This document shows, piece by piece, positions 3,347-21,308 of a stretch of DNA of 21,308 bases. Source of the stretch: Thermoplasmata archaeon (GTDB lineage: Archaea; Thermoplasmatota; Thermoplasmata; Thermoplasmatales; Thermoplasmataceae); NCBI GenBank assembly GCA_021826795.1, contig JAKAYM010000017.1, positions 1 to 21,308 of the forward strand. The letters run 5' to 3'. The notes beneath the pieces were generated by a model, which did not search any database, was not told the origin of the DNA, and saw nothing but the letters and a program-made list of their open reading frames with translations. Each line of letters starts with the position of its first letter. Position 1 is the first letter of the stretch. The position numbers and the translations under genes are program-made.

Positions 3347-6300
3347 ATGAAAAATAGTGGAAAGATATACAGCATATCCGGTCCTGTGGTAATAGCAACA
3401 GACCTTGATGGAAAAATGTTTGATGTGGTACGTGTAGGTAAACTGGGTCTTGTAGGAGAGGTGATAAAAATTGTCGGAAACAGATTTACCATTCAAGTAT
3501 ATGAGGATACCAGCGGGCTTAAGCCAGGGGAACCAGTAATATCTACAGGTAAGCCATTATCCGTTGAACTCGGACCTGGGCTTTTAAAATCTATATATGA
3601 TGGAATACAGAGACCACTGGACGTTATACAGTCAGAAACAGGTGATTTCATAGTGAGAGGTGCAAGTGCACCGCCGCTGGATGAGAAAAAGGAATGGGAG
3701 TTTCAACCTGTGTTGAAAGAGGGTGATGAGGTCGAAGAAGGATATATACTCGGCACAGTGAAGGAAACTGACATAATCACACATAAAATAATGGTTCCAT
3801 ACAAGGTTAATGGAGTAATAAAAACAATTAAGGCAGGAAAATTCAGGGTATCAGATACTGTATGTACAATTCAATCAGAAAATAAGGTCGTGGAGGTAAA
3901 ATTAAAACAGATATGGCCGGTAAGGCAGGCCAGAAAGGTTTTTCTCAAATTCGCACCTGAAATTCCACTTATTACAGGTCAAAGGGTAATAGACTCATTT
4001 TTCCCTGTGGCAAAGGGAGGAACAGTAGCGGTACCGGGGCCGTTCGGATCTGGTAAATGTGTTGCCGGTGATACACCATTGCTTATGGCAGATGGTAGCA
4101 TACATAATATTGAAGAAATCTATGAAGATTCCATATCTAATGGTGAAATAGAGTACCATAATGAGAACGAGACTCTTATAAAACTTAAATCACCTCTGAG
4201 AATATTTTCATTTTATGATGGAAAGATTTCTCAAAGTAAATCTGATTATATATACAAGGGCAAAAGTGATACTTTATTAAAATTAAAGACGAGGACAGGG
4301 AAGAAGGTAAAGGTAACTCCGGTTCATAAGTTATTCAGATTGGATGGGGAAGGAAATATAGTGGAAACGGAGGCAGGACATCTGGAACCGGGAGATTATA
4401 TTATTTCAATAAGAAAATTTGAAGCAGAGGAGGAGAATAAAAATATAGATATTTACTCTGTATTCTATGGTGCCAGGTCAGCCAGCGATGAAATTAAAAA
4501 TAAACTAAAACATATAACAAAGGAAAATAGAAAAATCCTAAGAAATGTAATTGATGAGAACATATTAAATCAGATTACAAGAACAGAAAATAACCCTGCA
4601 CCAAAGTTGAGCTGGATAAAAACGATATACGATACACTTAACATGGAACGCCCAGAGATTATGTACTTAAGGGGAGATAGGAAGGGTAATATTGTAACGG
4701 TACCGAATTTTGTTTCCGAAGATCTCTCAGAGTTATTAGGATTTTATATCGCAGAGGGTTATATAAGAGGCAAAAGCACATTTGTAATTACAAATTCTGA
4801 CAAAAGCATACTTGAAAGAGTTGAATATTTGCTGAAAAAAGTATTTAATTTAAGTGGAAAAATAGAAATACAAAAAGATAAAACAAACAATTTTATAGTA
4901 AACAGTATCGTATTATGTGAATTTATAAGAAAATTAATACCCGGAAAATTAGCTGCTGATAAGGAGGTGCCACAGATAATAATGAAATCAAGCCGGAGAG
5001 TTATATCAGCATTTTTAAAAGGATATTACCTGAGTGATGGCAGTTATTATAAAGGGCAAATAGAATTGTCAACTGCAAGTAAAAATCTGTCAACATCATT
5101 ATCCTATTTGTTAACAAAACTTGGTATACTGCATACTATTAGAAAGAATAAAAGTTTAAGCGAACATTATAGGTATAGAATCTTTATAAGAGGTTTAAAT
5201 GAGCTTAAAAAATTCTATGTGGGATTATCTATTGGAGAGGAAAAATTTAAAAAAATAGAGAACGTAGAAAAATATATAGATTTTAAGAAGAATACTTATA
5301 CAGCCATTGACCTGGTTCCATTAGATTCAGAAAAAATAGATAGTTTATACAGAGCAAACTCCAGTTACAATCAGTTAAAATCAAACTGTGTAGAAATAAC
5401 TAATTATACTAGCCAAAATGAAAGAATGAGCGTTTCTTCCATCAATAAATTTGCCCAGACCATCCTAATAAATAATACTGATGAGGTTAGAGAAGATATT
5501 AATATGTTAAGAAACATCTCTGAATCTCTGGAATTTATATACTTTGACAGAATTGATTCAATAGAGGAACTAATAGGCCCTTTTGATGTTTATGATGTAA
5601 CAACTCCGGAATTTGGAAGTAATTTTGTTGGAGGAGAAGGCGCCATACTGCTGCATAACACAGTAATTCAGCACCAGCTTTCAAAATGGTCCGATGCAGA
5701 TATAACAGTTTATGTAGGATGTGGTGAGAGGGGCAACGAAATGACAGAGATACTTACAACATTCCCTGAATTGCAGGACCCGAAAAGCGGTAAGCCCCTG
5801 ATGGAAAAAACAATTCTAATAGCAAATACCTCAAATATGCCTGTGGCAGCAAGGGAAGCCAGTATTTATACAGGAGTTACCATAGCAGAGTATTACAGAG
5901 ATATGGGTTACGATGTGGCCCTCATGGCTGATTCAACAAGCAGATGGGCAGAGGCTTTAAGGGAAATTTCCGGAAGGCTCGAGGAAATGCCAGGAGAGGA
6001 GGGTTATCCAGCATATCTCGGCAGAAGAATATCTGAATTCTATGAGAGATCAGGAAATGCACAGATAATCCCGCAGGATAAGAGAACAGGTTCAATCACG
6101 CTCATAGGAGCTGTTTCACCACCTGGTGGAGATTTATCAGATCCTGTTGTGCAGAATACCCTGAGGGTTACACGTGTATTCTGGGCACTGGATGCTTCCC
6201 TGGCATCAAGAAGGCATTTTCCATCAATCACCTGCCTCAACAGCTATTCACTCTATCTTGATTCACTTTCCGGCTGGTTTAAATCCAATATAAATCCAGA

Positions 6301-6718
6301 ATGGCCACAGATGCATGCACTGATGATGGGCATACTTCAGAAAGAGTCAGAATTGCAGGAAATAGTCCAGCTTGTGGGATATGATTCACTTCCGGAAAAG
6401 CAGAAAAACGTTCTGGATATTGCCAAGATTATCAGGGAGGATTTTCTCCAGCAGAATGCTTTTGATGATATAGATACGTACTGTTCAATAAATAAACAGT
6501 ATGAAATGCTGATGATTATTAAAACACTCAATGAAATGCAGGAAAGGTCCATAGATGCAGGATTAAAAGTGACACAAACAGCAACATTGCCGGTCAGAAT
6601 GAAGATATCAAGAATGAAAGAAATAAAGGAAGAAGATTTTAATAAGTTTTACAATGATGTTATAAAGGAAATAAATAATGAATATAATAATATAATGGAG
6701 GGTGTTGAAAGTGTCTGA
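3347..6718 (+). CDS. atpA: A-type ATP synthase catalytic subunit A with an in-frame intein
   Basis: Catalytic nucleotide-binding subunit of the A1 head. The 1123-residue precursor is an N-extein (1-237), an intein (238-771) and a C-extein (772-1123). The exteins sum to 589 residues, normal for subunit A. The N-extein has the beta-barrel (GPVVIATDL...), the bulge region with EKKEWEFQP, and ends in GPFGSGK. After splicing, Thr772 completes the Walker A motif GPFGSGKT. The C-extein has [11 protein letters not shown], the Walker B strand with [20 protein letters not shown], and the catalytic region [10 protein letters not shown]. Until the intein leaves, the P-loop is split, so ATP synthase activity requires splicing. 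The gene lies directly between atpF and atpB with no gap or overlap of note. The same insertion site is used in Thermoplasma and Pyrococcus subunit A. Confidence 0.97.
4058..5659 (+). mobile_element. Full-length LAGLIDADG intein in the P-loop of subunit A
   Basis: A protein-splicing element of 534 residues, precursor residues 238-771. It starts with Cys238 ([14 protein letters not shown]), has the block B motif TPVHKLF (Thr324, His327), and ends with the block F/G region [15 protein letters not shown] and ILLHN, with His770, Asn771 and Thr772 as +1 nucleophile. All splicing residues are present. The middle carries a two-motif homing endonuclease: LLGFYIAEG (463-471, acidic Glu470) and LKGYYLSDG (557-565, acidic Asp564), both acidic residues kept. 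A sample of 60 intein bases (4801-4860) has 15 G+C, against 27 in 60 extein bases (5881-5940), in line with a separate origin. Thermoplasma acidophilum is known to have a mini-intein of about 173 residues at this site, so this copy is the long form. Confidence 0.95.
6697..6702 (+). promoter_or_regulatory. Ribosome binding site that fixes the atpB start
   Basis: GGAGGG lies inside the last codons of atpA. Possible atpB starts are GTG 6702, TTG 6705 and GTG 6711. Only GTG 6711 has a normal distance (8 nt) from this site; the others overlap it or nearly so. Confidence 0.75.
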
Positions 6719-11132: not shown

Positions 11133-12311
11133 ATGGAAACTATAAAAAATATTGAAATATTTGAACTTGGTTCGCCGGAAGAAAAATCATCGCCGTGGAG
11201 TTCTACCATATTGATACTGAAGTTAACATCATCTGAAGGAAGAATAGGATTTGGAGAGGTACCGACAACCATGATGACCCTTCCGGTAAAGGAGAGTTTA
11301 AATGAGGTTGCAAGGATATTTCAGGATAAAAATTATTTTGATGTTGAAAAAAACATACGGGAATATTACAGAAATGCATTTTATGTTACAAAATCTATTG
11401 AAGAAACAGCTGCTTTGAGTGCATTTGAGATAGCATCGTGGGATCTTATAGGGAAGAACCTCGGGTCCCCAGTATATAATTTACTGGGAGGGGAATTCAA
11501 TGATAAAATCAGGGCGTATGCCAATGGATGGTATTCTGACTGTGTTACCCCAGATGATTTTATAAATAAGGCAAAAAAACTGGTTTCAAAGGGATATACA
11601 GCCTTTAAATTTGATCCTTTCGGAGATAATTATGATAAAATTACAGTTGAATCGGTTAAAAAATCTGCTGCAATAGTTGGTGGAATGAGAAATGCATTAG
11701 GTGACAATATAGATTTACTGATTGAATGCCATGGGAGATTTGCACCGAAATATGCGGTTATGGCTGGAACTGCACTGGAAGAGTACAATCCATTATTCAT
11801 TGAAGAGCCTGTTCATCCGGAACTTGAACACTTTCTTCCAGAATTCAGGGCAAGGGTAAATATACCTGTTGCCCTTGGTGAGAGACTTCTAAATAAGGAG
11901 GATTTTGCCAGGTATATTTCCGGTGGAATGGTTGATGTAATACAGCCGGACATAACCAATTCAAAGGGGATACTGGAGGCAAAGAAGATAGCGTCAATAG
12001 CAGATTCCTTCGGTGTTCCTGTGGCATATCATAATGCATTTGGACCTGTACAGACTGCAGCCACCCTTAATGTTGATTACACGCTTTCAAACTTCCTTAT
12101 TCAGGAAAGTTTCGAGGAGTCGTGGCCTGCATGGAAGAAAAGCCTGTTTACAGGATATTCTGTAGAGAATGGATATATGAGGCTATCAGGAAAACCTGGT
12201 CTGGGAATAGAGGTTAATGAGAAAATTTTGAATGATAGTGTTGTATCCGGGATGGAACCTCTGGGAACTGAACCGCCATGGGTGGTTTCCGGGACGTTTA
12301 AAAAATTATAA
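11133..12311 (+). CDS. gnaD: Mandelate racemase/enolase-superfamily sugar-acid dehydratase, probably gluconate dehydratase
   Basis: Probably removes water from D-gluconate (and perhaps D-galactonate) to give 2-keto-3-deoxy acids, the second oxidative step of the Entner-Doudoroff route used by Thermoplasmatales. The 392-residue protein has the N-terminal capping domain (1-125, ending in SPVYNLLGG) and the barrel domain. Visible site residues are Lys159 in KFDPFG, the metal ligand Glu198 with His200 in ECHGRF, the ligands Glu224 (in FIEEP) and Glu250 (in GER), Asp273 (QPDIT), and the base His300 in AYHNAFGP. The ECHGRF motif and the His300 pattern fit the gluconate-type dehydratases. Related enzymes act on xylonate, arabinonate or other acids, so substrate is less certain than family. 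Monocistronic; it converges with the next gene, 2 nt between stops. Confidence 0.75.
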   Translation: METIKNIEIFELGSPEEKSSPWSSTILILKLTSSEGRIGFGEVPTTMMTLPVKESLNEVARIFQDKNYFDVEKNIREYYRNAFYVTKSIEETAALSAFEIASWDLIGKNLGSPVYNLLGGEFNDKIRAYANGWYSDCVTPDDFINKAKKLVSKGYTAFKFDPFGDNYDKITVESVKKSAAIVGGMRNALGDNIDLLIECHGRFAPKYAVMAGTALEEYNPLFIEEPVHPELEHFLPEFRARVNIPVALGERLLNKEDFARYISGGMVDVIQPDITNSKGILEAKKIASIADSFGVPVAYHNAFGPVQTAATLNVDYTLSNFLIQESFEESWPAWKKSLFTGYSVENGYMRLSGKPGLGIEVNEKILNDSVVSGMEPLGTEPPWVVSGTFKKL

Positions 12312-12722: not shown

Positions 12723-12935
12723 ATGCCAAAAACTATCACAATCAAACAGTCAGTATATGATGAATTAAAGGGATTCAAAAAAGATAATGAAAGTTTCAGC
12801 GAACTTTTAGAAAGATTGATTAAATCACAGAGCAAGAAGGACATCCTTACATCGTTGAGGGGAAGTATTGAATTTGAAGATAAAGAGGAACTTCTTAAGG
12901 AGATTAAAAAGAAAAGGTGGGAGGATAGGAATTGA
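12723..12935 (+). CDS. vapB: VapB-type antitoxin (UPF0330 family)
   Basis: Antitoxin of a type II pair, 70 residues. The N-terminal half (PKTITIKQSVYDELKGFKKD then SFSELLERLIKS) is a ribbon-helix-helix-like DNA-binding unit: a strand that begins with TITI, then two helices. The C-terminal part (DKEELLKEIKKKRWEDR) is the charged tail that wraps the toxin in this family. It is a typical archaeal VapB of the short type. The start ATG follows a TATA box by about 28 nt, so the message is likely leaderless. It overlaps vapC by 4 bases. Confidence 0.88.
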   Translation: MPKTITIKQSVYDELKGFKKDNESFSELLERLIKSQSKKDILTSLRGSIEFEDKEELLKEIKKKRWEDRN

Positions 12936-13309
12936 TTCTACTGGATACAAATATCATCATCGAGATACTTGAAAAGAAATCAGAAAAAGGGGAAACGTTG
13001 ATGGTTAAAATTATTGAGAGCGAAGAAGAATATTGCACATCCTCGGTTAACATGCATGAGTTACTTTATGGTATAGAAAAATACTCCAAAGATGATCATT
13101 TGGTTCTACAGATACCAACAGTGGAATACAATGAGAATGACAGCAAACTCTCTGCTGTTTTGGAACTAACTGCAGAAAGAAAAGGAAGATCAGTTCCGAG
13201 AATGGATGCAATTATAGCATCAATAGCGATAAACAACGGGTGTTCACTCTATACGTTGGATGAGCACTTTAAAGTTTTTACAGAAAATGGACTTAAACTG
13301 TTTGAATAG
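12932..13309 (+). CDS. vapC: VapC toxin, PIN-domain ribonuclease
   Basis: PIN-domain endoribonuclease of 125 residues; members cleave tRNA or rRNA and are held inactive by VapB (known of the family). The four acidic residues of the Mg2+ site are visible: Asp5 (LLDTN), Glu43 (NMHELLYG), Asp92 (RMDAIIASIA) and Asp110 (TLDEHF). The toxin therefore looks intact. The start is a TTG that overlaps the vapB stop, supported by GGAGG at 12920-12924, 7 nt upstream; this fits translation coupled to and dosed by the antitoxin. No further gene follows in the operon. Confidence 0.9.
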   Translation: MILLDTNIIIEILEKKSEKGETLMVKIIESEEEYCTSSVNMHELLYGIEKYSKDDHLVLQIPTVEYNENDSKLSAVLELTAERKGRSVPRMDAIIASIAINNGCSLYTLDEHFKVFTENGLKLFE

Positions 13310-15466: not shown

Positions 15467-15540
15467 GTTTCACAAATTTATTTTGTATTAAGTCTAAAAT
15501 TCGTTTATCCTGTCAGTTCCTTAATAATTTATCCAACTCT

Positions 15541-15561
15541 AAATATTTAAGTATGTATAAA
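15541..15561 (+). promoter_or_regulatory. Promoter of the sugar kinase-GNAT operon
   Basis: Two AT-rich boxes, AAATATTTAA (15541-15550) and GTATAAAATA (15552-15561), lie about 29 and 19 nt before the ATG at 15575. The first has the better spacing for a leaderless start. No ribosome binding site is visible. Confidence 0.4.
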
Positions 15562-15574
15562 ATATCAGTGGCGT

Positions 15575-16594
15575 ATGTTTAATATCGCTGTAGATGGTGG
15601 TGCAACCAAGACTGTTGCAGCAATCTATGATGAAGATAATATCTTAGCAATTGGAGCAGCAGGCCCATCAAATTATAGGAATATTGGAATACATAACACA
15701 GTTGTGCATATAAGACAGGCTATAAATTACAGTCTCAAAAAATCAGGAATTGATGAAAAAGACATAAATAGATACGTATTTGCCCTTGCAGGGGTTAAAG
15801 ATTCTAATAAATCTACCGAAATAGTTGATGGAATTACAGATAAAATATCTGGAAAGAAGGAAAAATTACTACTGAATGATGGAGAGGCAGGTTACTTTTC
15901 ACGTTTCCTGGATAAAGATGGCATAGTAATCGCTCCTGGTACTGGTATGATTGCATATGGGAAAAAATCAAACAACATTCAGAGAACGAGTGGTTGGGGC
16001 TGGTTTATTGGTGATGAAGGAGGAGGATTTTATATAGGCAAGAAAGCCTTACAGGAAACTGCAAAGCTTGAAGATGGAAGATCCGAATATGACTCTGATC
16101 TGAATAATAAAATAAAGTCATTTTATAATGTAAAAAATGGCAGGGATCTTGTTAATATCATATATAAAAACAGGATGGATATAAGAACTATAGCCAGTCT
16201 TTCTACAATCGTCTCACAAATGGCAAACAGTGGTGACGATCTTTCAAAACATATTATACAGGAGGCAGCCATTGAAGCATCATTATGTGCTATATCACTT
16301 TACAAACGGTTGAATTATAAAAATGTCACAGTAAGTGGTTACGGTGGTGTTTACAGATCTGGAGATTTATACTGGAAAACACTTACAAATAATATTAAGG
16401 AAAAATTAGATAATATATCCTTTAAATATCCACTTTATGGTTATCACGCTGTAATAGGTTCTATCATAATGTCAAGATATATAGGCGGCTATGATGTTGA
16501 TGAAAATGATATCGAAAAATTAAAAGAACAGATAGATAAATTGGTTTCCCAGCTTCCCGGTTCAATTAAAAAGAAATATCTTTATATATATTGA
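15575..16594 (+). CDS. murK: BadF/BadG/BcrA/NAGK-family sugar kinase, probably MurNAc/GlcNAc kinase
   Basis: ASKHA-fold kinase of 339 residues, cytoplasmic. Visible parts: phosphate-1 loop DGGATKT (7-13), catalytic Asp102 (LLNDGEAG), phosphate-2 loop APGTGMIAYG (120-129), the NAGK-type signature GWGWFIGDEGGG (140-151), and the adenosine motif VSGYGGVY in the C-terminal half. This family includes GlcNAc kinase and Clostridium acetobutylicum MurK, which phosphorylates MurNAc and GlcNAc at O-6. With murQ, nagZ and an AmiE-type hydrolase next to it, MurNAc/GlcNAc kinase is the best guess: it would make the substrate of MurQ. A real alternative is 2-keto-3-deoxygluconate kinase, since the Thermoplasma acidophilum enzyme of that activity is reported to belong to the same family. 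First gene of a two-gene operon with the GNAT gene, 16 nt apart. Confidence 0.7.
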   Translation: MFNIAVDGGATKTVAAIYDEDNILAIGAAGPSNYRNIGIHNTVVHIRQAINYSLKKSGIDEKDINRYVFALAGVKDSNKSTEIVDGITDKISGKKEKLLLNDGEAGYFSRFLDKDGIVIAPGTGMIAYGKKSNNIQRTSGWGWFIGDEGGGFYIGKKALQETAKLEDGRSEYDSDLNNKIKSFYNVKNGRDLVNIIYKNRMDIRTIASLSTIVSQMANSGDDLSKHIIQEAAIEASLCAISLYKRLNYKNVTVSGYGGVYRSGDLYWKTLTNNIKEKLDNISFKYPLYGYHAVIGSIIMSRYIGGYDVDENDIEKLKEQIDKLVSQLPGSIKKKYLYIY

Positions 16595-16610
16595 AAAGCG
16601 TGAGATATAC

Positions 16611-17693
16611 ATGGAAGAAATCAGAAGAGGAACTATAAGTTACCGCGATAGTCTAATTTCCAGCCTTAATGAAAATTTTAGGCCAGGAGCAGGGGCAAGA
16701 AACGGTATGTATAGCGAATTTCCACATTTATTTTCAAATGAAAATATTAGAAATACATATTTTATATATAAGGATGGAAAACCAGTATCTCAGGCCTCGG
16801 TATTTCCAATGTTTATATCTAACAGGAGTTCAATAATTAAAGCAGCAGCAGTAGGGTCTGTTTCTACCATGAAAGATTATGGAAATAGAGGTTATGCAAC
16901 TTCTATTATTAAGAAAATAATTGATGATTTAACTACCAGACATTTTTCGTTGATGTTTGTTTCCGGAGAACTTGAATTATACAAAAAACAATCCTGCGTT
17001 AAAACAGGGTATATTTCAGATTTTACCATAGAATATAATAAAAATTATTCTGAAACAGATGTAAAAATCAGGGACGCAGAATATCGCTTAAACAATTATA
17101 TGAATTATTTTAACCTATATAAAAAGGAACGTCTACGGCATATAAGGACACCGGAATTGATGAAGTCACTGTTAAATTCATTATGGTTTAAACGATCAGG
17201 ATGGAATATGGAGTTATTTGATAATAATAACGGCAAATTTGACGCATATGCTGTTATATTAAAAAGAAATAATATGGAACAACTCAATGTAATGGAGTAT
17301 TCAGGAAATAGAAAATCTCTTATACGAATATTCCACAAAGCAATGGATTATTTCCACGTAAATAAAATAAAATGGCATGTTTATAATGATGATACTGACT
17401 TTTTTCAATTATCAACAAAGTATCATATAGATAAGAAGATAACATATTTAGAAGGAACAGTGCGTGTCCTTAACGAAAGATCTTTATTTAATAATCTTTC
17501 TCCATGGTTCCTGGAAAATCTTGGCTGTTTGCCATCTATAAAAAAAACTGAAAACGATATATTTATATTAAAGATAAATAAAAAAACTCTTGAAATAAAA
17601 GGTTATGGAGAATTAACAAATTTTCTATTCGGTGGTACTGATCACTCGCTTAATATACCATTGCCATTTCCAGATGATTTAAGTTATATCTAA
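16611..17693 (+). CDS. GNAT-family N-acetyltransferase with a large C-terminal domain
   Basis: Acetyl-CoA-dependent acetyltransferase of 360 residues. The N-terminal 130 residues hold the GNAT core: a strand pair with TYFIYKDGKPVSQASVFPM, then AVGSVSTMKDYGNRGYATSI (81-100), where GNRGYA is the acetyl-CoA pyrophosphate loop, then LMFVSGELELYKKQSCVKTGY (motif B). The remaining 230 residues include a second GNAT-like region and end in a beta-rich segment (about 320-360, KKTLEIKGYGELTNFLFG) that resembles the sterol-carrier-like tail of Eis-type acetyltransferases. The acceptor is not known; in this context an amino sugar or a muropeptide amino group is conceivable. Cotranscribed with the kinase; its end overlaps the convergent murQ gene by 15 bases. 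Confidence 0.75.
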   Translation: MEEIRRGTISYRDSLISSLNENFRPGAGARNGMYSEFPHLFSNENIRNTYFIYKDGKPVSQASVFPMFISNRSSIIKAAAVGSVSTMKDYGNRGYATSIIKKIIDDLTTRHFSLMFVSGELELYKKQSCVKTGYISDFTIEYNKNYSETDVKIRDAEYRLNNYMNYFNLYKKERLRHIRTPELMKSLLNSLWFKRSGWNMELFDNNNGKFDAYAVILKRNNMEQLNVMEYSGNRKSLIRIFHKAMDYFHVNKIKWHVYNDDTDFFQLSTKYHIDKKITYLEGTVRVLNERSLFNNLSPWFLENLGCLPSIKKTENDIFILKINKKTLEIKGYGELTNFLFGGTDHSLNIPLPFPDDLSYI

Positions 17694-18509
17694 ATTATTT
17701 CTTTTAATTTCTTCTATGCACAGTGAAATATCATACCCATTTTTTTCCAGTAAAGATTTTGCTCTGCTGTAATCCAAATTAAACTGGGACATAAGGATAT
17801 TTTCAGCCCTATTCCTTAATTTTTGGTTAAAATTTGATTTCATTGAGGACATAGTATTATCGTAAGTTCTACCTAAAAGTATTGCTATTGCGGTGCTTAT
17901 TGTATTCAATGTAATTTTCTGGGCAGTTCCCGCATTCATTCTGGTAGAACCCTGTATAACCTCAGCACCTGTATTCAATATAATTATATTTTTACAGTAT
18001 TTTTCCATTGAGCTATTGCCATTATCTGTTATCCCTGCTGTATAATAGCCATTTTCAAGTGCATATTTTAACGCCTCTATTATATATGGTGTTTCACCAG
18101 ATGCAGAAATACCTATTACCACATCATATTGAGAATGTATTTTTCTCTTTAAATCTATTATTGCCTGTATTTTTTTATCTTCTGACCCTTCTACAGCAGT
18201 ATAAAGGGCTTTTTTACCCCCAGTCATTATATAATCAAACATATTATGATCTATATTATATGTTGGAAATAGTTCTATTACATCCTGGGCAGCTATTCTA
18301 CCACTTGTCCCTGCGCCGATGTAAACAACCTTCCCGCCACGGTTTATGTGTTCTTTGATTATACTAACTAGTTTAGATATCTGGTCAGATGCATTTTTAA
18401 CTGCTTTAAATGCATTGAAAGACTGATTTACAATTACCTTCACCATATCATCCACATTTAAATTATTAATCCCTCTTGTCTCATCGTTGATTTTTTCAGT
18501 TTCACGCAT
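17679..18509 (-). CDS. murQ: N-acetylmuramic acid 6-phosphate etherase
   Basis: SIS-domain lyase that cleaves the lactyl ether of MurNAc-6-P to give GlcNAc-6-P and D-lactate. The 276-residue protein has the MurQ layout: an N-terminal arm ETEKINDETRGINNLNVDDM, the sugar-phosphate loop YIGAGTSGRIAAQDVIELFPT (Glu79 in it), VEGSED (106-111), ISASGETPYIIEAL (134 on), GAEVIQGSTRMNAGTAQK (181-198), and a C-terminal three-helix tail (RAENILM... LDYSRAKSLLEKNGYD). Glu79 and Glu110 sit where the E. coli enzyme has its essential Glu83 and Glu114, with the same offset (from memory). It is a little shorter than the usual 295-305 residues, mostly at the N-terminus. No signal peptide. An archaeal MurQ is unexpected, since there is no murein. 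Other SIS enzymes are less likely given the full set of MurQ motifs. Confidence 0.88.
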   Translation of the reverse strand: MRETEKINDETRGINNLNVDDMVKVIVNQSFNAFKAVKNASDQISKLVSIIKEHINRGGKVVYIGAGTSGRIAAQDVIELFPTYNIDHNMFDYIMTGGKKALYTAVEGSEDKKIQAIIDLKRKIHSQYDVVIGISASGETPYIIEALKYALENGYYTAGITDNGNSSMEKYCKNIIILNTGAEVIQGSTRMNAGTAQKITLNTISTAIAILLGRTYDNTMSSMKSNFNQKLRNRAENILMSQFNLDYSRAKSLLEKNGYDISLCIEEIKRNNLDIT

Positions 18510-18675
18510 ATTTACACTATTATATGGAAATATAATAATTTTGATTTTAAATACCGGGAAATATACTGTATATATAATTCATAATTTTTTTGGCACTTTA
18601 AATTTATCCTAACTCTTCATTATATATAAAATTTCCAGTAATTATATTTTTATATAATATAGCATTAATATTGAA
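18510..18675. promoter_or_regulatory. Divergent promoter region of murQ and the AmiE-type gene
   Basis: For amiE, TTTTATATAATA (18647-18658) is about 23 nt before the ATG. For murQ, an AATTATTATATT-like box on the minus strand (18530-18541) is about 25 nt before its ATG. Between them lies a perfect 13-bp palindrome ATATAC-T-GTATAT (18561-18573), a possible shared operator. The centre is a T-rich stretch with no further structure. Confidence 0.45.
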
Positions 18676-19731
18676 ATGAATGGTTTAAAGGAATCAGTAG
18701 AATCAGTAATTTATGAAAATTACAGAAAAACAACCTGTGGTTTGTCGATATGCATTTATAAGGATGGTGAACAGATATACAGGAATTCCATTGGAGAGAT
18801 AGAACCACTTTCCTTTCATTATACAGACGATACAGTATATGATCTTGCATCACTTACAAAACCTATTATCACAGCAACAATAACAGGAAAACTCATAGAA
18901 CGTGGTAAAATATCACTGGAGGATAATCTTGGCTCCCTGGGGTTCATCGATAACACTAACCTTTCCAATATTACAGTTAGATCATTGCTTTCCCATAGCA
19001 CGGGGCTGATATGGCATTATCCCTTATACGAGCACGGTCATAATAAAGAAAGTTATATTGAAGCAATTAAATTACTTGGAGAACAGAGTAGGATATACAA
19101 TCACGAAGAATACAGTGATTTGAATTTTATACTTCTTGGTTTTCTGCTTGAACATATTTATGGAAAGTCCCTTGATAAGATTGCAGAAAAAGAAATAATA
19201 CATCCATTGGAACTTAAAAATACCGGATTTAATTTGGTCCGTGACAGCTCTATGATAGCTCCCACTGAAAATACTAAGGATCGTGGTCTCCTGCATGGGA
19301 AAGTACACGATGAAAACTCATATTATCTTGGAGGAGTGGCAGGTCATGCTGGTCTTTTTTCAAATATTAAAGATCTTTCAATTTTTATGAAAAGTCTTCT
19401 TGACGGAAAGCTACTTAATACCAAAACACTTGAATTATTCACATCACCGCAGAATCAGTATCTGGGTGGGACATATGGATTGGGATGGATGGTAAAAACA
19501 AAAAAAACAGAAAAATCATCCCTATCTTATGGTTTATCACTATTCATGGGAGATTACTCTCCCATGGGCACTTTCGGCCATACCGGGTTTACAGGCACAT
19601 CAATTGTTGCCAACCGGGAGATGAATATGTTCTCAATTCTGCTCACAAACAGAGTTTATCCTACCAGAGAAAATGTAAACATACTTAGATTCAGAAGACT
19701 TCTAAACAATGCCATATTTTTAAATATATAA
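18676..19731 (+). CDS. amiE: Serine hydrolase of the AmiE/YbbE (class C beta-lactamase-like) family
   Basis: Penicillin-binding-protein-fold hydrolase of 351 residues. In Bacillus subtilis AmiE (YbbE) removes the stem peptide from MurNAc-peptides; the same is inferred here. Catalytic elements: Ser59 and Lys62 in DLASLTKP (S-x-x-K), Tyr146 in EYSDLN (Y-x-N/D motif), and GHTGFTGTS (301-309) in place of the KTG box. The segment HDENSYYLGGVAGHAGLF (211-228) and APTENTKDRG are strong marks of the YbbE group. Metal or lipid-type beta-lactamases are excluded by these motifs; an esterase of the same fold is the main alternative. No signal peptide, so it acts in the cytoplasm. It is divergent from murQ and converges with nagZ, 12 nt between stops. 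Confidence 0.8.
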   Translation: MNGLKESVESVIYENYRKTTCGLSICIYKDGEQIYRNSIGEIEPLSFHYTDDTVYDLASLTKPIITATITGKLIERGKISLEDNLGSLGFIDNTNLSNITVRSLLSHSTGLIWHYPLYEHGHNKESYIEAIKLLGEQSRIYNHEEYSDLNFILLGFLLEHIYGKSLDKIAEKEIIHPLELKNTGFNLVRDSSMIAPTENTKDRGLLHGKVHDENSYYLGGVAGHAGLFSNIKDLSIFMKSLLDGKLLNTKTLELFTSPQNQYLGGTYGLGWMVKTKKTEKSSLSYGLSLFMGDYSPMGTFGHTGFTGTSIVANREMNMFSILLTNRVYPTRENVNILRFRRLLNNAIFLNI

Positions 19732-19743
19732 TATATTATACTA

Positions 19744-21141
19744 TCACATAAATCCAAGTATGGAATATATTGCATATATTATATTTTCAACCTTGGAACT
19801 ATATGTACTGATATAGCCAATATCCTCACTTATTAATCCCTCATCCATTCCAAGACTGGTAGATACATAGACACAGATGTTACCTTTTGCCTTTTCATTA
19901 ATAATTTTATAATTATAATAGAAGTTCTCATTACGCCCGATAAAAATTAGCTGTTCCATGTTAAATGACACATCATTTAAAGCATCAAAGGATATAAATT
20001 TGAATTTAAGATTATTGAATTCAAATTCTTCTTTTAATTTTGAATAATTGTTTACATCAGAATTTACATTTGTTAACGAATATGGCATGAAAATCAAATA
20101 AAATTCCTTCTCTGGGTCTAAGGTTACATGGCGCTTCCAAACAATGCTTTTATAAGAGATAATTTCCATTATCTTATTAGGTGGCTTAAAATTAAAAACC
20201 TTCTCCGGAATCAAATTTTTAATTCTTTTTACCTTATTACTTTCATCCAGAACTTCAATTTTTTCCAATTCATACTTTAAATTCTCTGCAGTTTCAGTAC
20301 TTGCGCTTTCAACAATATCTGCACCGTTGTTTAATGAAAACTCTACCATTTCTTTATAGCTATAATTCATGGAAATAGCTTTCATATCCATAGAGTCTGT
20401 TATTATCACTCCTTCAAAACCAATTTCACGTCTCAAAATATTATACAGTTTTCCTGACAGTGATGCCGGATAAGAATCAATATTTTCGTATTCTACATGT
20501 GACATCATAATAGAATCAACATTGTTTTCAGAGCTTTTTACAAATGGTGCCATATCATTGTATATTTCTGATATATTTCTGGTGTCAACAGGCAAAATCT
20601 TATGTGAATCGGCACTGACAAAACCATGGCCTGGAAAATGCTTGGCTGTTGAAGCCACCCCATATTTTCGCAATCCCTTAATGTAAGCTATTCCATGTTC
20701 AGATACAGTATCAATATCGGTTCCGAATGATCTCTCAAGTATTACCGGATTGCTGAAATTTTTCAGAATATCCAAATCCGGAGCGAGATTCCAGTTTATA
20801 CCCACAGAAGCAAGGTCATATCCTGTTTTTAATCCCGAATAGTAGGTAAGATTAATATCATTAATTTTCCCCAATGCAAGATTGCTCGGAATGTAATTCA
20901 CATCGGACAATCTAATCACGTTACCACCTTCCTGATCTATAGCATAATACGGTTCTTCTATACCGTTTTCTATTCTGTAAAATTTATTTATATTTTTTAT
21001 AAGTTCTGAGAGTTCGGCTGAATTTCTGAAATTCTTTCTGCTTACTAAAATGGATCCGGGCAATACTTTCTTAAGGTATTTTTTAATGCTTTCAAAATCA
21101 TTACCATTTATGCCAGACTGTATAAAGTATCCTGGTCTCAT
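19744..21141 (-). CDS. nagZ: GH3 beta-N-acetylhexosaminidase, NagZ type
   Basis: Glycoside hydrolase family 3 enzyme that would cut GlcNAc from GlcNAc-MurNAc fragments. The TIM barrel covers about residues 1-320: substrate Asp69 in AIDQEGGNV, ERSFG (136-140), the NagZ-type loop KHFPGHGFVSADSHKILPV with the acid-base pair Asp178/His180, and the nucleophile Asp249 in IITDSMDMKAI. The KHFPGHG...DSH loop separates NagZ from other GH3 enzymes. After the barrel are about 145 residues of a second domain; this is shorter than the second domain of Bacillus NagZ (YbbD), and the domain is missing in E. coli NagZ. There is no signal peptide, so substrates must be imported. TATA box about 24 nt upstream, no ribosome binding site. 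Confidence 0.9.
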   Translation of the reverse strand: MRPGYFIQSGINGNDFESIKKYLKKVLPGSILVSRKNFRNSAELSELIKNINKFYRIENGIEEPYYAIDQEGGNVIRLSDVNYIPSNLALGKINDINLTYYSGLKTGYDLASVGINWNLAPDLDILKNFSNPVILERSFGTDIDTVSEHGIAYIKGLRKYGVASTAKHFPGHGFVSADSHKILPVDTRNISEIYNDMAPFVKSSENNVDSIMMSHVEYENIDSYPASLSGKLYNILRREIGFEGVIITDSMDMKAISMNYSYKEMVEFSLNNGADIVESASTETAENLKYELEKIEVLDESNKVKRIKNLIPEKVFNFKPPNKIMEIISYKSIVWKRHVTLDPEKEFYLIFMPYSLTNVNSDVNNYSKLKEEFEFNNLKFKFISFDALNDVSFNMEQLIFIGRNENFYYNYKIINEKAKGNICVYVSTSLGMDEGLISEDIGYISTYSSKVENIIYAIYSILGFM

Positions 21142-21193: not shown

Positions 21194-21308
21194 CTAATTC
21201 TTAGGTAATATGTCCATGTTTATCTTCTTTAATAGTGATTCAACCCTTTTGGGAATCTCATTAAACTCTATCTTATTATCTGAGTATTCCACTGCATAGA
21301 CCTTTGAC
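21194..21308 (-). CDS. 3' end of an unidentified gene
   Basis: The minus strand is open from the window edge to a TAG at 21194. It yields 37 residues, starting SKVYAVEYSDNKIEFNEIPK and ending in KKINMDILPKN. No family can be named from this tail. It runs in the same direction as nagZ, with 52 nt between its stop and the nagZ start, and so could belong to the same functional cluster. Confidence 0.5.
   Translation of the reverse strand, partial: SKVYAVEYSDNKIEFNEIPKRVESLLKKINMDILPKN

Follow-up and report, generated by a model that had tools for sequence, protein, structure and literature searches.

Why should an archaeon that apparently makes no murein carry genes for dismantling it? The question is raised by a 21,308-nucleotide stretch of DNA (the window, meaning the whole stretch analysed: positions 1 to 21,308, forward strand, of contig JAKAYM010000017.1, GenBank assembly GCA_021826795.1) from a Thermoplasmata archaeon of the order Thermoplasmatales, which comprises acidophilic archaea, some of them cultured. 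An earlier reading of the letters alone (the original prediction) had seen here five neighbouring genes for a kinase, a GNAT acetyltransferase, MurQ, an AmiE-type hydrolase and NagZ, and had taken them for a muropeptide salvage cassette; all five are open reading frames (ORFs) at the coordinates below, and their family matches agree with those names. We posit, with a probability of roughly 85%, that they form the heart of a route by which fragments of bacterial peptidoglycan are catabolised in the cytoplasm, a trait that is accessory in the order. This reading draws on the genes and their catalytic residues, their co-occurrence and clustering in relatives, the absence of matches to MurB and diaminopimelate (DAP) epimerase, the absence of N-terminal membrane segments, and the single clades formed by MurQ, AmiE and NagZ. 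The features on which the argument turns are as follows:

15502..15574, no strand: left boundary of the cassette, from the end of blastn synteny and the tRNA-Phe(GAA) in relatives
15575..16594, plus strand: BadF-type sugar kinase, proposed N-acetylmuramic acid (MurNAc)/N-acetylglucosamine (GlcNAc) 6-kinase and MurK analogue; 339 amino acids (aa); BcrAD_BadFG, 1e-35
15797..15799, plus strand: codon of kinase Lys75, aligned with I69 of the MurNAc pocket of Tannerella forsythia MurK (PMC10465942)
16611..17693, plus strand: GNAT acetyltransferase (Acetyltransf_9); 360 aa; PF13527, 4.5e-9
17679..18509, minus strand: MurQ-type N-acetylmuramic acid 6-phosphate etherase; 276 aa; NF003915, 288.8 bits (cut-off 168)
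18273..18275, minus strand: codon of MurQ Glu79, first member of the presumed catalytic pair, from the MurQ alignment
18180..18182, minus strand: codon of MurQ Glu110, second member of that pair, from the same alignment
18676..19731, plus strand: AmiE/YfeW-like S12 serine hydrolase, proposed cytoplasmic MurNAc-L-Ala amidase; 351 aa; PF00144 (Beta-lactamase/S12), 8.5e-48
19744..21141, minus strand: NagZ-type GH3 beta-N-acetylglucosaminidase; 465 aa; PF00933 (Glyco_hydro_3), 2.6e-63

Enzymes of the cassette

The window MurQ exceeds the cut-off of the NCBIfam subfamily model listed above and is matched by the solved MurQ structure 4lzj (7.2e-43). Its E79 is Glu in 101 of 102 aligned sequences, the remaining one having a gap, and E110 is Glu in all 102; work on Escherichia coli MurQ is reported to assign the catalytic role to these two glutamates. 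The protein is proposed to be an etherase that would release D-lactate from MurNAc-6-phosphate. The claim that catalytic residues are kept extends to the other hydrolases: NagZ retains KHFPGHG (167), the DSH loop dyad (177) and the TDS nucleophile motif (247), and the S12 protein carries SxxK at 59-62, YSD at 146-148 and HTG at 302-304, with SxxK, Y and HxG motifs preserved in 22 of 22 AmiE rows of the order in the tree set. The GH3 protein, which at 465 aa includes an additional C-terminal region, has the GH3 GlcNAcases 6k5j, 3wo8 and 5bza among its top PDB matches and probably works like NagZ.

The GNAT matches nine proteins at E<=1e-3. Relatives adjoin a second NagZ in one archaeal locus (L149) and are also present in Bacillota murQ loci (L026, L041). 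In these two loci, from Bacillota metagenome-assembled genomes (MAGs), relatives of both GNAT families of the archaeal clusters (that of the window included, 26-30% identity) lie beside NamZ.

Companions of MurQ across the order

A search of the order's genomes for the co-occurring genes had been proposed as a check of the salvage idea. We surveyed 117 genomes of the order, of which 22 are murQ-positive (MurQ match at E<1e-60; NagZ and AmiE taken at E<=1e-10). NagZ and AmiE are each present in 22/22 murQ-positive versus 3/95 murQ-negative genomes, NlpC/P60 in 22/22 versus 6/95, NamZ in 20/22 versus 1/95 and AnmK in 11/22 versus 0/95, with Fisher p values for co-occurrence with murQ from 6.7e-21 to 8e-10; kinase matches at E<=3.3e-79 are found in 24 of the 117 genomes, 20 of these being murQ-positive. 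To control for kinship we used a GcvT tree with 81 rows, made up of the window and the 80 surveyed genomes whose gcvT match was retrieved (murQ-positive G101 and G119 are not among them); it yields 10 independent pairs differing in murQ. NagZ and AmiE are concordant in 9-10 of the 10 (sign test p 0.002-0.004), NamZ in 7-8 of 9 (median p 0.008) and NlpC in about 7 of 9 (median p 0.016, range up to 0.06), and the mean number of discordant pairs over pairings is 0.0 for each of the four. MurQ presence requires 14 changes on this tree, at least 10 of them on well-supported branches. Such an association among the relatives far exceeds what chance would produce. A class-level sample of 400 genomes returns MurQ (E<=1e-20) in 22, namely 17 of the order's 22 and five outside the order.

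The genes are also physically clustered. A scan of genome contigs kept the best 80 loci, and is thus a sample; NagA, GlmD, LysA, epimerase and Opp genes were counted within the fetched loci only, so that the counts are lower bounds where contigs and loci end. Up to 16 pathway families fall within one 20-kb stretch (L123), and MurQ, AmiE, NagZ and NamZ share one fetched locus in 15/22 murQ-positive genomes, the first three of them being together in the window as well. Across the fetched loci of the 22, we find NagA in at least 20, NamZ in at least 17, a GlmD-like SIS deaminase in at least 16, an L-Ala-D/L-Glu epimerase (checked against dehydratase) and NlpC/P60 each in at least 14, a PBP4-like S13 peptidase in at least 12, OppB and OppC in at least 11, AnmK and DAP decarboxylase each in at least nine, and a GlcD-like FAD oxidase in at least four. 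Identities of NagA, GlmD and LysA were scanned on representatives: NagA (TIGR00221, 273 bits) and the DAP decarboxylase LysA (TIGR01048, 351 bits) are above cut-off, and the GlmD-like protein is under every curated NCBIfam cut-off. The NamZ representative displays both Pfam domains and that of AnmK matches PF03702 at 238 bits. One cluster epimerase (L120) has the L-Ala-D/L-Glu epimerase 1jpm as its closest solved structure (1.7e-67), and the closest structures of one SH3+NlpC/P60 endopeptidase are dipeptidyl-peptidase VI. The same neighbours are present in many bacterial murQ loci. The salvage interpretation gains from this, as relatives supply the transporter, NagA, GlmD-like deaminase, NamZ, AnmK, NlpC/P60, epimerase and DAP decarboxylase that are lacking in the window.

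These neighbourhoods also bear on the idea that the core is a general GlcNAc or chitin catabolic set of GH3 hexosaminidase, kinase, NagA and deaminase, with MurQ, AmiE and the rest being incidental. GH3 GlcNAcases, BadF kinases, NagA and SIS deaminases do occur in chitin breakdown, and the cassette kinase resembles hexokinases and NAGK too. MurQ, however, has no role in GlcNAc breakdown, and yet NagZ and AmiE each accompany it in all 22 genomes that have it against 3/95 that do not; peptide-processing genes sit in the same cluster, and no chitinase is seen among the representative proteins scanned, although no search was aimed at chitinases. We consider this explanation very unlikely.

For the catabolism of muropeptides, we infer the substrates, uptake step and order of reactions as follows, with the remaining genes expected elsewhere in the genome of the window organism. 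An Opp-type ABC transporter would import disaccharide-peptides or peptides released by bacterial neighbours, whereupon NagZ and NamZ would split the GlcNAc-MurNAc sugar bonds inside the cell and AmiE would cut MurNAc from L-Ala. The BadF-type kinase would phosphorylate MurNAc and GlcNAc at O6, with AnmK serving anhydroMurNAc; MurQ would then remove D-lactate to leave GlcNAc-6-phosphate, which NagA and the GlmD-like deaminase could convert to fructose-6-phosphate, while a GlcD-like oxidase may burn the lactate. The stem peptide would be reduced to L-Ala, L-Glu and lysine by NlpC/P60, the PBP4-like peptidase, dipeptidases, the L-Ala-D/L-Glu epimerase and DAP decarboxylase. A function in defence or detoxification, in which the genes would serve not for feeding but to neutralise bacterial wall fragments, lytic enzymes or compounds resembling beta-lactams, strikes us as highly improbable. 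In its favour are the beta-lactamase fold of the S12 protein and the recurrence of GNATs in the clusters. The clusters, however, run on through NagA, the GlmD-like deaminase, DAP decarboxylase and the GlcD-like oxidase into central metabolism, and archaea are not known to have beta-lactam targets.

Several further observations concern transport and its neighbours. In four loci (L182, L184, L185 and L153), a second, divergent MurQ with 33-36% identity to that of the window directly follows OppBCDF-type transporter genes, which suggests a dedicated muropeptide import operon. Very long solute-binding-family proteins, from 1,069 aa (cut by the contig end) to 1,319 aa, are found in murQ-positive G100, G101, G001 and G054 (L121 10251-14126, L150, L001 and L188); that of L121, the sole one scanned, matches SBP_bac_5. 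A membrane-associated family that has no assignment beyond a weak PKD_3 match (F18; e.g., L125 7179-8492) is present in loci of 5/22 murQ-positive genomes. In a bacterial locus from a Mycoplasmataceae MAG (L023), MurQ has AmiE and a GlcD-like oxidase nearby; this is possibly a bacterial parallel, if that organism is also wall-less.

The host had been described as lacking murein, and its murQ-positive relatives agree with this: neither MurB_C nor DAP epimerase is matched in any of the 22, whereas among 14 control genomes MurB_C was matched in 10 and DAP epimerase in nine. Neither MurNAc nor meso-DAP is therefore apparently made by the usual route, though the enzymes that would consume them are kept, and the substrate of the pathway is accordingly probably foreign. 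The occurrence of AnmK in half of the murQ-positive genomes hints that anhydro-muropeptides, such as those shed by Gram-negatives, may be among the substrates.

The products had also been said to lack signal peptides and to be cytoplasmic. A simple hydropathy scan of the fetched copies bears this out, with no N-terminal membrane segment in any copy of the kinase, MurQ, AmiE or NagZ, nor in any of NamZ, NlpC, PBP4, LysA or the epimerase; one is scored in a single NagA and a single GlmD copy, and internal hydrophobic stretches are present in 4/26 AmiE, 4/16 NamZ, 1/25 MurQ and 1/25 NagZ copies. Such N-terminal segments are regular in OppB (13/14), OppC (14/14) and the solute-binding proteins (11/13), and occur in 4/6 F18 copies. 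Given the contrast between the core enzymes and the Opp permeases and solute-binding proteins, the data fit uptake first and breakdown second, in the cytoplasm.

The kinase and the ancestry of the cassette

The original prediction had a kinase standing in for the phosphotransferase MurP, as in the MurK route. The functional part of this claim is supported, as the kinase is predicted to work like MurK; the genealogical part does not, since it lies outside the bacterial MurK clade. The window kinase displays the MurK/NAGK fold, with Clostridium acetobutylicum MurK as its top structural match, and also resembles hexokinases and NAGK. In the tree, the cassette kinases form a clade of 26 rows (support 98) among archaeal paralogues and apart from the murQ-linked bacterial kinases, with 8zo3 grouping with a Clostridia row.

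The MurNAc pocket of T. forsythia MurK is described, from its crystal structure, as lined by I69, T94 and S133-P134-L135, and S. tokodaii hexokinase is noted to have an Asp at the I69 position (PMC10465942). The equivalent residue is Lys75 in 24 of the 26 rows of the cassette clade, including all 20 murQ-positive genomes in it; the two exceptions (G108, G109) are both murQ-negative, and the kinases of murQ-negative G038 and G086 also have Lys75. All 20 sampled paralogues have Gly at this position. The clade differs from the paralogues at two further places: after GTG it has Met or Leu instead of their Ser, and their GGW is SGW or CGW in the clade. In our proposal, the lactyl carboxylate of MurNAc is the partner of K75; together with the small residues of SGWG, this lysine suggests room and charge for the lactyl group, and phosphorylation of MurNAc is predicted. 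Lys75 is not required of every kinase that feeds MurQ: the position is Gly in the paralogues of murQ-positive G100 and G101 and Asp in C. acetobutylicum MurK, and of the kinases of three murQ-positive genomes from outside the order, two have Glu and one has Asp. The Asn preceding the catalytic Asp is common to the clade kinase and C. acetobutylicum MurK and, in the same study, is also reported in GlcNAc kinases (PMC10465942), because of which a dual MurNAc/GlcNAc activity is likely.

The cassette had been held not to be freshly moved from bacteria, with trees for each gene named as the means of dating a transfer. Our trees are quick ones with SH-aLRT support only. In the MurQ tree, 28 rows group together with support 99, namely those from the 22 genomes, that of the window and five database proteins, of which one bears the label Conexivisphaerales. 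Adding a single Thermoplasmata row that does not belong to the order gives a group of 29 archaeal rows (support 97), and all 68 bacterial rows lie outside it; the clade of the order sits on a long branch and five further archaeal MurQ rows are placed elsewhere. AmiE of the order is a single clade of 22 rows (support 100, versus 11 bacterial rows) and NagZ one of 23 rows (support 99, versus 15 bacterial rows), all of these bacterial rows being from murQ loci. These three single clades, apart from the sampled bacteria, speak against a recent transfer from bacteria, for which we find no support. NamZ of the order is not a single clade, its rows mixing with loci of neighbouring lineages. Outside the order's MurQ clade, Culexarchaeum and Nitrososphaerales MAGs combine MurQ and AnmK with NamZ/NagZ or AmiE, and a Thermoprotei MAG has a MurQ (L004, L018, L071); these are other archaeal acquisitions.

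The age of the genes contrasts with their patchy presence. Ferroplasma G074 is collinear with the window up to 15501 (84-90% DNA identity, blastn; GcvT 97% identical) and then has a tRNA-Phe(GAA); G072 and G073 align up to 15484, with the same tRNA-Phe(GAA) there. At the limits used, G074 has no match to MurQ, NagZ, AmiE, NamZ, NlpC or AnmK, its best MurQ match being 6.5e-7. Either the cassette was inserted here or it was lost with its flank in other Ferroplasma; the position beside a tRNA favours insertion without being proof of it. About a fifth of the surveyed genomes of the order have the cassette, as an accessory trait, and the closest relatives of the window lack it; it has hence been gained or lost often, though it is old in the order.

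Several points weigh against the catabolic reading. Curated models are missed by the window proteins: MurQ is under TIGR00274 (220.3 versus 302 bits) and NF009222 (237.3 versus 255), which is why we file it as a member of the MurQ subfamily and not as a TIGR00274 equivalog; the best NCBIfam match of the GH3 protein is PRK05337, at 183.3 bits versus a cut-off of 207; that of the S12 protein is YfeW/PBP4B PRK03642, at 5e-38 and 131 bits versus 385; and the kinase reaches 86 versus 370 for NF046058. Its descent from bacterial MurK is ruled out by the tree, despite MurK being the closest fold, and murQ-positive G100 and G101 have a different kinase paralogue without K75 beside murQ. NagA, GlmD, NamZ and Opp genes are all missing from the window. 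NamZ is not matched in murQ-positive G007 and G101, in G002 the NlpC match is weak and fragmentary and lies where a contig ends, a few murQ-less genomes carry single members of the set, and AnmK is not significant in the kinship-controlled test (median p 0.25). DAP could come from a route without DAP epimerase, such as Ddh, and the enzyme activities of the order are themselves predictions.

Some of these points would equally suit another explanation, which the original prediction had named as its alternative: that the cluster processes a different, perhaps endogenous, lactyl-ether amino sugar of an archaeal glycan or exopolysaccharide, with the enzymes repurposed after transfer. The long branch under the order's own MurQ clade, the archaeal origin of the kinase and the missed equivalog cut-offs are all compatible with it. 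Yet the enzymes that travel with MurQ act on murein stem peptides (NlpC/P60, AmiE, L-Ala-D/L-Glu epimerase, PBP4-like peptidase, DAP decarboxylase) or on MurNAc or anhydroMurNAc (NamZ, AnmK), and MurB, through which a sugar of the MurNAc type is known to be made, is not matched; we regard the alternative as unlikely. A more detailed form of the wall-fragment reading, to which we give no better than an even chance, is that members of the order are true wall scavengers without murein: they would import bacterial muropeptides and catabolise them fully in the cytoplasm to fructose-6-phosphate, D-lactate, L-Glu, L-Ala and lysine, mostly by means of a MurNAc kinase that evolved within archaea and not from bacterial MurK, with K75 binding the lactyl carboxylate, and the module would be ancient and gained or lost largely whole.

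The rest of the window and comparison with known systems

From left to right, the window holds an A/V-type ATPase operon, a gluconate dehydratase homologue, a PIN protein, tRNA-Ala, GcvT and then the five cassette genes. Its ATPase B subunit shares 99% identity with the one of a Ferroplasma sp. MAG, which marks the organism as a Ferroplasma-like member of the order. TATA-like strings, which had been read as promoters of each transcription unit, are present upstream of the cassette genes, but carry little weight in so AT-rich a window, where octamers with at most one mismatch number 246 versus 190 expected by shuffling. The MR/MLE gene at 11133-12311 was considered as the pathway epimerase and rejected, because its best NCBIfam match is gluconate/galactonate dehydratase (612 bits versus a cut-off of 750), it is only 24% identical to the cluster epimerase and it is 97% identical to a gene of murQ-less G074. 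At the right edge, a reading frame entering on the minus strand leaves a 37-aa C-terminal piece (21194-21307); as a candidate for the end of GlmD, an expected neighbour, it has no convincing match to the cluster families (best E 0.53). The ATPase A subunit (3347-6718) contains an intein-like insert of ~530 residues (about 4057-5656), which is missing in G074, G072, G067 and G069; in G073 and G001 the alignment of the gene runs across the insert without a break. At 12723-13309, a short ORF precedes a gene for a VapC-like protein with a PIN domain. Both are present in G074; G072 has only fragments of the first, and G073 has neither in the stretch searched. No relative was found in viral contigs with patterns drawn from one protein, which reach close relatives only.

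The catabolism of murein in bacteria and its parts are well known; the proposed archaeal pathway is what is new. Proteins of archaeal genomes already carry automatic MurQ names, but we found no description of MurQ or muropeptide catabolism in archaea among the titles and abstract openings listed from the open-licence literature. A 2025 paper on archaeal peptidoglycan hydrolases reports that these kill bacteria, that Thermoplasmatota are among the lineages rich in them and that OppBCDF-MppA is enriched in archaeal genomes with a peptidoglycan hydrolase, and it raises the question of whether archaea use peptidoglycan as food (PMC12352652); the terms murQ, muramic and recycl are not in its main text, nor are peptidoglycan, acetylglucosamin and muram matched in PMC5155288. 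A near-complete muropeptide-catabolic set without secretion signals in a partly cultured order renders that question directly testable: the walls of bacterial neighbours may be part of what the order feeds on. If so, there would be a nutrient link from bacteria to archaea in acidic communities, the presence of murQ, namZ and anmK genes in archaea would be explained, and this would be a case of archaea having taken up a bacterial pathway in the distant past, an archaeal enzyme then standing in at the first kinase step.

In Bacillus subtilis, murQ, murR, murP, amiE, nagZ and namZ form an operon. Like it, the window brings together MurQ, an AmiE-type amidase and NagZ, and relatives add NamZ; unlike it, the archaeal cassette uses a kinase, its genes alternate in strand instead of forming one operon, its NagZ, AmiE and NamZ lack an N-terminal membrane segment in the hydropathy scan, so that their steps would be cytoplasmic, and it belongs to an archaeon in whose relatives MurB is not matched. 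Neither MurP nor MurR is seen among the nine window proteins or the representative families of the relatives' loci, a comparison that did not extend to unclustered ORFs and whole genomes. The ykf set of B. subtilis handles murein peptides with an LD-carboxypeptidase, an L-Ala-D/L-Glu epimerase, an NlpC/P60 endopeptidase and an Opp ATPase; the clusters of relatives likewise hold the epimerase closest to 1jpm, the SH3+NlpC/P60 endopeptidase and an Opp transporter, but here the peptide branch, which is not in the window, is joined in one island with the sugar branch. No LD-carboxypeptidase was noted among the representatives scanned, with no dedicated search made for it. In the E. coli arrangement murQ-murP-yfeW, MurQ is again beside a YfeW-type S12 protein as in the window, where, in contrast, no phosphotransferase-system transporter is seen and NagZ and the kinase are added, with NamZ in relatives.

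In C. acetobutylicum MurK and the MurT-MurK-MurQ scavenging of T. forsythia, a BadF-fold kinase feeds MurQ, as we propose here. The crystal study describes T. forsythia as unable to make MurNAc and taking it from outside (PMC10465942). Its MurK, with I69 and the S-P-L region, differs from the archaeal pocket of K75, GTGM/L and SGWG, the clade of which lies within archaeal paralogues. The archaeal peptidoglycan hydrolases, as described in PMC12352652, share with the present cluster the theme of archaea acting on bacterial walls; they attack the wall itself, whereas the cluster would supply the intracellular, catabolic part.

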